NCBI GenBank assembly: GCA_028280515.1
Contig: JANQLP010000213.1
Span: 1 to 44,899 of the forward strand
Direction of reading: 5' to 3'
Length of the DNA: 44,899 nucleotides
From: Hyphomicrobiales bacterium
GTDB taxonomy: Bacteria > Pseudomonadota > Alphaproteobacteria > Rhizobiales > Methyloligellaceae
Made by a program: the position numbers and the translations under genes. Positions 1 to 35,607 of this stretch are shown piece after piece. Each line of letters starts with the position of its first letter. Positions within the stretch are counted from its first letter, which is position 1. Under the pieces are notes generated by a model that was given only the letters and a program-made list of their open reading frames with translations, was not told the origin of the DNA and did not search any database.

Positions 1-99
1 TAATCGGATAAATTTGCTCTATATCTTTAAGTGTTAGAGCATCTTTATGCGTTCAGGTTTCGCGACGAAACGCGTCAATCTGAACGCATGATGCTCTAG
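1..99 (+). repeat. Mosaic hairpin repeat, copy 1 (cut by window start)
   Basis: This is the right-hand part of a two-module intergenic repeat that also occurs at 35069-35209 (complete) and, inverted, at 44819-44899. Bases 1-20 are the end of the left module, 21-35 the AT-rich linker, and 36-97 a hairpin module starting AGAGCATC and ending GATGCTCT around a loop holding CGCGACGAAACGCG. It ends in CTAG at 96-99, a few bases beyond the ahcY stop codon. One base in the 5' arm is G where copy 2 has A, turning an A-T pair into a G.T wobble. It resembles REP/RIME-type elements of rhizobia in general form; I cannot assign it to a named family. No coding potential is visible. Confidence 0.9.
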
Positions 100-34269: not shown

Positions 34270-34361
34270 TGCCGGGACCGTTTTACTCAACTCTGTTTCA
34301 CACGAATCGACAGCCCCTGACCCAAGAGATATAAGAGTGCGTCCCGCCATCAGGCGGGGCA

Positions 34362-34513
34362 CGTTCTCGGGGCGGGGTGAAAGTCCCCACCGGCGGTGAA
34401 GGCACCAGGTGCCCAAGCCCGCGAGCGCCCTTCGAGGTTCATACTCGAAGGGGTCAGCAGATTCGGTGAGAATCCGAAGCCGACGGTTACAGTCCGGATG
34501 GAAGAGAGCGAAG
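34362..34513 (+). ncRNA. FMN riboswitch (RFN element)
   Basis: The leader of ribH2 contains the conserved RFN core: TTCTCGGGGCGGGGTGAAAG, CCCCACCGGCGGT, AGCCCGCGAGC, a variable stem closed by CCTTCGAG and CTCGAAGG, GGTCAGCAGATTCGGTG, AATCCGAAGCCGACGGT and ACAGTCCGGATGGAAGAGAG. It binds FMN and would lower ribH2 expression when flavin is plentiful. About 80 bases separate its end from the start codon, enough for an expression platform. The 90 bases before it (34270-34361) hold the likely promoter and no gene. Confidence 0.96.
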
Positions 34514-34592: not shown

Positions 34593-35072
34593 ATGAATCA
34601 GAGCTCCCAAAATACAATTGAAAGCACGCGGGTCGCGTTCGTGCAGGCCCGCTGGCATGCAGATATCGTCGATGAAGCATGCAAGGCCTTCATCGCCGAG
34701 CTTGGCAAGCGAACGAACCGGGCAAGCCACGTCGACGTTTTCGATGTGCCCGGCGCCTTCGAAATCCCGCTGCAGGCCCGCATGCTGGCCCGTGCGGCAC
34801 GATACGACGCGGTCGTTGCCTGCGCGTTCGTCGTCGACGGCGGCATATACCGCCATGAATTCGTCGCCGAGACGGTCGTCAACGCGCTGATGCAGGTGCA
34901 GATGGAAACCCATATTCCCGTGTTGTCTATGGTGCTCACGCCGCATCACTTCCACGAAAGCGCGGAGCACAAACGCTTCTTTCGGACGCATTTCAAGGTC
35001 AAGGGCCGCGAAGCGGCTGAAGCCTGCCTGTCCGTCTTGGCGATGCGGGACGAGTTCAGGTCCGTGGCCTAG
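34593..35072 (+). CDS. ribH2: 6,7-dimethyl-8-ribityllumazine synthase, type II (RibH2)
   Basis: Condenses 5-amino-6-ribitylaminouracil with 3,4-dihydroxybutanone phosphate to make lumazine, the penultimate step of riboflavin synthesis. The 159-residue sequence, with VQARWHADIVDEACK, FDVPGAFEIPLQA, DGGIYRHEFVAETV and VLTPHHFHES, closely resembles Brucella RibH2, a decameric lumazine synthase often present beside a second RibH1 elsewhere in the genome. TAAGGAG is spaced correctly before the ATG. Its stop codon TAG is the first three bases of the mosaic repeat, so the repeat end sets the C-terminus. Confidence 0.96.
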   Translation: MNQSSQNTIESTRVAFVQARWHADIVDEACKAFIAELGKRTNRASHVDVFDVPGAFEIPLQARMLARAARYDAVVACAFVVDGGIYRHEFVAETVVNALMQVQMETHIPVLSMVLTPHHFHESAEHKRFFRTHFKVKGREAAEACLSVLAMRDEFRSVA

Positions 35073-35209
35073 AGCAAAATCCGATTAGGTTGACTCACCC
35101 TGTTTCAACCTGATCGGATAAATTTGCTCTATATCTTCAAGTGTTAGAGCATCTTTATGCGTTCAGATTTCGCGACGAAACGCGTCAATCTGAACGCATG
35201 ATGCTCTAG
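35069..35209 (+). repeat. Mosaic hairpin repeat, copy 2 (complete, two modules)
   Basis: A 141-base element bounded by CTAG at both ends. The left module pairs 35071-35093 with 35105-35130 (AGAGCAAAATCCGAT with ATCGGATAAATTTGCTCT). A 15-base AT-rich linker (35131-35145) follows. The right module pairs 35146-35169 with 35187-35207 (AGAGCATC with GATGCTCT) around a loop with CGCGACGAAACGCG. Both modules therefore start AGAGCA and end with its complement. The element fills the space between convergent ribH2 and the CBS gene and supplies the TAG stop of each. It probably forms two hairpins in RNA from either strand and may act as a two-way terminator. No transposase is encoded. Confidence 0.92.
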
Positions 35210-35607
35210 CGGTCTGGCGGGCGTGCCTCCGGTACCTTCTTTGCGGCGTTCGCGAGGACGCTGAGGAGGTCGAACGCGCTGACGATGCCGATGGCCCTGC
35301 CATTGTCGGTGACAACGAGGTGGTGGACGCGGTTCTTGCGCATGCGGACCGCCGCTTCGCTCACCGGGGCCGTGGCGCGGACGATGCAGACCGTGTCATT
35401 CATCACCTCGCGCACTTCGCGCGTTCCGTCGATGCGGCGCGCGACATCGCCGCTGGTAACGATGCCGAGGAGCTTCGAGTTCAAATCCGCCACCGGCAGC
35501 GCGTGAATCCGCTTCGACGCCATGAGCTCGCGCACGTGATCCACCGTGTGGCCCGGCGCAGCGAATACGACCTTGCTGGTCATGACGTGAGCGACCGTGA
35601 CACTCAT
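35206..35607 (-). CDS. CBS-pair domain protein
   Basis: A 133-residue cytosolic protein made of two CBS domains: VAHVMTSKVVFAAPGHTVDHVRELMASKRIHALPV (about 5-55) and VREVMNDTVCIVRATAPVSEAAVRMRKNRVHHLVV (about 65-120). Such stand-alone CBS pairs bind adenine nucleotides or related ligands and sense energy state; no partner domain is attached. Its TAG stop lies in the terminal CTAG of the mosaic repeat, so the last residues (ARPPDR) may have been set by insertion of the element. Confidence 0.92.
   Translation of the reverse strand: MSVTVAHVMTSKVVFAAPGHTVDHVRELMASKRIHALPVADLNSKLLGIVTSGDVARRIDGTREVREVMNDTVCIVRATAPVSEAAVRMRKNRVHHLVVTDNGRAIGIVSAFDLLSVLANAAKKVPEARPPDR

Follow-up and report, generated by a model that had tools for sequence, protein, structure and literature searches.

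A recently multiplied two-hairpin repeat standing on YTAR words, often at stop codons, in a Hyphomicrobiales genome

The window analysed here is the whole of contig C209 (44,899 nucleotides) of the genome of a Hyphomicrobiales bacterium (G000 below), whose assembly comprises 5.41 Mb in 253 contigs. Between two convergent genes, encoding lumazine synthase and a CBS-domain protein, lies a complete copy of a composite repeat, and parts of two further copies occupy the ends of the window. An FMN riboswitch at 34359-34513 shortly precedes the lumazine synthase gene whose end lies in the repeat. The features are as follows.

1-99, plus strand: partial element truncated at the contig start, covering model positions about 45-141; synteny places C145 next to it
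34593-35072, plus strand: lumazine synthase gene (PF00885), ending in the element, stop codon at 35070-35072
35069-35209, plus strand: complete two-hairpin element including both outer CTAG words (sequence, RNA fold, alignment of 41 complete copies)
35070-35131, plus strand: left hairpin, AAA bulge on the 3' arm (DNA fold z = -9.9)
35070-35071, plus strand: left TA of the putatively duplicated target, making up the TAG stop codon of the lumazine synthase gene together with G35072
35092-35096, plus strand: GACTC, matching GANTC and close to the left hairpin's apex (kept in 37/41 complete copies, lost in 4/41)
35132-35144, plus strand: linker TATCTTCAAGTGT, 13 bases (4 bases longer in 2/41 complete copies)
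35145-35208, plus strand: right hairpin, TTT bulge on the 5' arm (DNA fold z = -7.8 for 35147-35210)
35206-35607, minus strand: CBS-domain protein gene (PF00571), convergent and ending in the element, stop codon at 35208-35206
35207-35208, plus strand: right TA of the putatively duplicated target, making up the minus-strand stop codon of the CBS-domain gene together with C35206
44819-44899, minus strand: partial element truncated at the contig end, covering model positions about 61-141; synteny places C36 next to it

The element at 35069-35209 is real. Over 141 bp it runs CTAGAGCA...TGCTCTA, the linker, then TAGAGCATC...GATGCTCTAG, such that both hairpins begin with TAGAGCA and end with TGCTCTA while CTAG stands at both outer ends of the whole. 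Folded as RNA it reaches -77.4 kcal/mol, where shuffles average -31.0 (z = -12.9; 0/200 shuffles as stable), and each single hairpin, folded as DNA on either strand, lies beyond 200/200 shuffles. The two hairpins and terminal CTAG words described in the initial annotation of this DNA are thereby borne out, but its linker of 15 bases is shortened to 13. A search of the whole window against Rfam at gathering cut-offs returned the FMN riboswitch only and no match to the element, and with a loose limit across five loci the 141-bp element again had no match. Under that loose limit a Rhizobium-type locus (L219) drew two matches to Brucella sRNA families, far below cut-off.

The three copies seen in the window are a small part of the family. 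A 23-base left-arm pattern was found at 59 places in the genome and a 20-base right-arm pattern at 71, against 0 for the reversed control; 49 left and right matches could be paired, 46 of them at identical spacing. Once rows below 85% identity and duplicates had been dropped from the fetched loci, the copy table held 81 rows (41 complete, 21 left-end-only and 19 right-end-only), corresponding to 80 places, as one deletion derivative has two rows. These places comprise the 41 complete copies, 5 deletion derivatives (C89:3775, C103:15571, C145:3625, C38:4383 and C97:19996, the last being an exact lone right hairpin) and 34 copies cut by contig ends, of which 18 are left parts and 16 right parts. 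The copy number therefore lies between 64, if left and right parts pair up, and 80, if none do, giving a density of about one copy per 68-85 kb over the 5.41 Mb; the spacing of 20-35 kb proposed initially was an artefact of the window ends. Mean identity among the 41 complete copies is 96.0%, and the element has multiplied recently.

Contig ends also account for the two partial copies in the window. In the same-genus genome G003, the sequence at the window start adjoins that at the end of C145, and the sequence at the window end adjoins that at the end of C36. Because both of these contigs terminate in the left part of the element, full elements probably bridge both breaks, as deduced from the separate contigs. 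The repeat thus broke the assembly at both window ends, and the partial copies there are therefore cuts and not lost modules. They had been read as copies of the right module, yet the one at 1-99 retains the 3' part of the left hairpin. The related suggestion that the two modules move or are lost separately is weak: 34 of the 80 places are contig cuts and only 5 are deletion derivatives, one of them the lone right hairpin at C97:19996. Elsewhere, two copies (C251, locus L029, and C139, locus L030) have 44 bases of left flank in common at 98% identity, and their right flanks differ.

The target word of the element is YTAR, mostly CTAG. The outer base was a pyrimidine at all 59 left ends (C 58, T 1) and a purine at 54 of 57 right ends (G 49, A 5, with T 2 and C 1 as the remainder). 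In 36 complete copies both outer four-mers are visible; CTAG stands on both sides in 26 of these, and the sides differ in 10. Aberrant left four-mers were CCAG in two copies and CTAA in one. The differences between sides fall mostly in the outermost base (7/10, the other 3 being inner), and this therefore fits a duplication of two bases rather than four. Taken with a few empty sites, this one-sided variation suggests that TA is apparently duplicated upon insertion.

Empty sites in sister strains had been proposed as a check, and the corresponding sites were compared in relatives. At the junction of the window start with C145, G003 holds a single in-frame CTAG that is the stop codon of the upstream gene, and at C2:11987 it reads CTAC where the copy in G000 has CTAG on the left and CTAT on the right. 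At 35069 it reads TTAG (CTAA in G001) and at the junction of C36 with the window end CTGA, both at the stop codon. These four sites speak for a TA duplication. At C147, where only the right flank is comparable, G003 has CA in place of the expected TA, which counts against it. At the site formed by the end of C1 and the right flank from C38, whose two halves sit in different copies in G000, G003 reads CTAA. The sequences at C180/C1, C115 and C145:3625 were too diverged at the junction for a decision. The flanks of the two copies concerned at the C1/C38 site (C1 end and C38:58637) neighbour each other in G003 on C14 (L172:17592-17617); this arrangement may reflect recombination between copies or a wrong assembly join.

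The initial annotation placed the element always between genes, and this can now be put more sharply. At 35069-35209 both junctions read TAG outward, because the left TA is followed by G and the right TA stands after C, and each junction serves as the stop codon of the gene beside it; in G003 the CBS-domain gene seems to stop some 20 bases sooner. Using a heuristic frame call from open length and GC3, we tested 104 element ends: 46 abut a coding frame, and in 45 of these the TAG of the element is its stop, with 1 out of frame. In 25 complete copies both flanks extend for at least 300 bases, and 19 of these copies carry a stop codon at a junction (left 9, right 8, both sides 2; neither in 6). 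By the same heuristic call, coding frames are interrupted by 0/25 complete copies and by 1 of all 104 ends. On the assumption of a TA duplication, the word present before insertion would be TAG or TAA at 20 of the 21 stop ends, whereas L017 would have stood on TAT, which is no stop.

CTAG is itself a rare word in the genus: 0.71 Mb of G003 contains 302 against 2543 expected from composition. The window holds 16 where composition predicts 154, and 4 of the 16 are element ends. With the element-free G003 standing in for the ancestor, 58 of 285 usable CTAG sites carry such a stop, compared with 19 of 25 copies (p = 2e-8), and therefore the bias towards stop codons exceeds the effect of CTAG rarity alone. 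The bias probably arises from tolerance at stop codons rather than from active targeting.

We searched 60 relatives (7 of the same genus, 22 of the same family and 31 of the same order) at E 1e-5, and none had a match to the element. Nor was the 141-bp element found in plasmid, phage and viral collections, one of these trials using one exact 20-base pattern. When 0.60 Mb of sequence from the same genus was scanned for hairpins whose feet read TAGAG...CTCTA, a single unconvincing case emerged, in G006. The looser pattern TAGAGCA-N(32-62)-TGCTCTA matched in 38 of 199 genomes of the order, where low counts mean little because the reversed control matches up to 9 times per genome. Clearly above control were G000 (106), G215 (30) and two genomes of the group f24 (18, and 17 in G052); the other f24 genomes gave 9, 7, 1 and 0, and G073 gave 5.

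These relatives resemble the element in layout and differ in sequence. G215, from another family of the order, carries this composite too, its parts in identical order and orientation, with 64-base hairpins, the same feet, 3-base bulges and a linker of 12 bases, but its inner stems and linker sequence are different. A script that compared one module pair each, with one sequence per genome, counted 19 shared pairs in one hairpin (15 unchanged, 4 altered on both sides) and 18 in the other (15 unchanged, 3 altered on both sides), which makes 7 pairs altered on both sides. The G215 element was not found in the plasmid collection. The composite of f24, which is of Rhizobium type (G158, G132, G097), has the part order, TAGAG feet and mirrored bulges of our element, but is about 115 bp long with unlike stems and loops; it matched 372 plasmid records, 355 of them Rhizobium, with 291 over at least 80% of its length. 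A second hairpin is present in 7 of the 8 f24 loci shown, the eighth being cut by its contig end, and six were folded. The layout recurs less regularly in a third family of the order: a second hairpin, of less regular form, is present in both of the G192 loci shown. The two G099 loci and the G058 locus show one hairpin only.

Placed in the common orientation, sequences of G000, G215 and f24 alike show a first hairpin with a bulge of 3-4 nt on its 3' arm, the linker, and a second hairpin with a 3-nt bulge on its 5' arm. Among the composites folded, CTAG stands at both outer ends in 3/3 from G215, 5/6 from f24 and 1/2 from G192, and a GANTC word lies near the apex of one hairpin in 3/3, 4/6 and 0/2, respectively. 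Of 22 outer ends tested in these genomes, 2 were called as stops and 0 as frame-interrupting, several flanks being too short to call; the stop-codon bias is established for G000 alone. The early description holds in that the repeat is small, non-autonomous and intergenic, is allied to rhizobial types and has relatives elsewhere, and its refuting condition of only three copies without relatives is not borne out. The Rhizobium-type composite may be the published RIME element.

G000 also contains, at C3:4586-4668 (L168:1987-2069), one hairpin built on the same feet (TAGAGCAGAT...ATCTGCTCTA) and with a 3-base bulge, followed by TCTTATTGATTAGAGGCGG, which is close to the Rhizobium-type linker and second-hairpin start and is cut by the contig end. 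This hairpin occurs at one place only, 19 bases from that end, and is perhaps a second family of the two-hairpin kind in the same genome.

Taken together, these data lead us to favour, with rather better than even confidence, the reading that the element is a MITE in the broad sense, a transposable element without a transposase of its own, and that it is of the two-hairpin kind which alphaproteobacteria have in the CIR repeats, with Bru-RS and perhaps RIME as relatives. It would be moved by a YTAR-targeting, TA-duplicating transposase that is most likely of the IS5 family and IS711-like. Confidence is held at that level because no partner transposase was found among the families searched and the duplication is deduced from the junctions. 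The element would be copied in trans by an enzyme recognising YTAR and duplicating TA; the element proper would be GAGCA...TGCTC, and a target Y-TA-R would become Y-TA[GAGCA...TGCTC]TA-R. Insertion into a TAG or TAA stop, or into a CTAG common to two convergent genes, would leave each gene its stop codon, the stop being rebuilt on both sides because both junctions read TAG outward. The rarity of CTAG in the genus, combined with preserved stops, would then concentrate copies on gene ends. The hairpin feet and the bulge may form the recognition site of the transposase.

Three transposase families (Y1_Tnp, DDE_3 and DDE_Tnp_1) were searched in the genome, and no autonomous partner of the element was found among them. 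DDE_Tnp_1 has one match, at the end of C4, in an insertion sequence that we take to belong to the IS427 group of the IS5 family. One end of this insertion sequence stands on CTAG at C4, and that same end adjoins the CTAG of element copies in C156 and C32 (in C32, 14 bases are visible, with one difference). With one end of the insertion sequence in the assembly, it and the element have no terminal repeats in common beyond chance, the score being reached by 68% and 69% of shuffles. The IS5-type enzyme is favoured by analogy and not from sequence: IS711 is reported to duplicate TA at YTAR and to favour the Bru-RS repeats of Brucella, and in G000 likewise an insertion-sequence end adjoins two element copies.

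The same kind of element could instead be moved by an IS630/mariner-type transposase with a TA target, as proposed for RUP, whose likely mover is named as IS630-Spn1 in one of two reviews that treat CIR (PMC2229807 and PMC10969869). The putative TA duplication would suit such an enzyme, but YTAR is the word reported for IS711, and the sole DDE_3 match in the genome is a fragment (28.9 bits, just over cut-off, profile positions 1-60 of 146); we consider this unlikely. Equally, very stable hairpins at gene ends could be a structure that serves the host (a terminator, protection of mRNA 3' ends or a GANTC methylation site) and is kept for its function rather than being a mobile parasite, and the apical GANTC in this element and in the G215 and most f24 composites would agree with it. 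The element is missing from all 7 same-genus genomes, however, and the G192 composites have no apical GANTC. Within G000 itself the candidate of GANTC as a specially kept core went unsupported, the word being lost in four complete copies and no better kept than the rest, in copies too young for a sharp test. A host-serving origin is thus improbable, and later host use of single copies may occur. Very unlikely is a REPIN or BIME, an inverted REP pair moved by a RAYT (an IS200-like tyrosine transposase) via single-stranded hairpins: two imperfect hairpins in inverted orientation with one bulge each recall it, and one Y1_Tnp protein is encoded in the genome with element copy C103:15571 about 2.1 kb away, but that gene (L113:1192-1970, C103) is flanked by a different palindrome, GGGGACAGTTTACTTAATTC, TAGAGCA is absent from the 3.3 kb around it, Y1_Tnp occurs in 0/9 other genomes, including G215, four of f24, G192 and G099, which all have related hairpins, and REPs are reported to be tagged GTAG or CGTC at one end where this element has CTAG at both. 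An element copy on C188 (L095, about 1440-1680) stands between two inverted copies of GGGGACAGTTTACTTAATTC (27 bases), a nested insertion. To our knowledge, a TA duplication is not expected of a RAYT, and the apparent duplication here adds to the case that a RAYT is unlikely as the mover.

Returning to a transposase-moved repeat, a wider reading is possible but doubtful: that this element, those of G215 and Rhizobium and the Caulobacter CIR repeats form an order-wide superfamily with a fixed skeleton and free stems, whose ends rebuild stops at TAG or TAA and whose skeleton is read by one conserved class of transposase. That skeleton would consist of TAGAG feet, mirrored 3-4-nt bulges, a linker and CTAG ends, with gene ends as a safe haven. 

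The family is unusually informative because it is young: its 64-80 copies are nearly identical and have no counterpart in the genomes searched from the same genus, and they give access to empty sites, to the target word and to the reason for placement at gene ends. The mobility of CIR-type repeats thereby becomes testable. Moreover, such repeats break draft assemblies, and both ends of the window are breaks of this sort.

Among known systems, REP and REPIN sequences with their RAYT are likewise an inverted pair of imperfect hairpins, but our element has longer hairpins, CTAG at both ends and no matching RAYT. Bru-RS1/2 of Brucella is described as a palindromic intergenic repeat of about 103 bp associated with an insertion sequence that targets YTAR and duplicates TA; the element resembles it, by description, in being palindromic, intergenic and linked to YTAR and TA. 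The other of the two reviews mentions a MITE of Coxiella found mostly within 3' untranslated regions. A literature search, with subscription papers mostly outside its scope, gave no paper in which we recognised a description of this element or of comparable repeats at stop codons. The closest description is that of the CIR, the CcrM-associated intergenic repeats of Caulobacter (Chen and Shapiro 2003, via the reviews PMC2229807 and PMC10969869), which are described with two arms forming long stem-loops, a linker, GANTC at one terminal loop, TA ends and an intergenic location. The review that also treats RUP leaves target duplication open and calls for more on how such repeats move. Our element also has two stem-loops and a linker, TA at both termini, GANTC near one apex and an intergenic location; a CIR is about 110 bp long against 141 bp, and the GANTC in our copies, which are young, seems no better kept than other bases. 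To the question of whether a well-described family already covers this repeat, the CIR description gives a partial yes, the match being one of description and not of sequence. On that comparison, the element appears to be a new family within a class of repeats, the CIR-like kind, of which related bacteria already provide examples.
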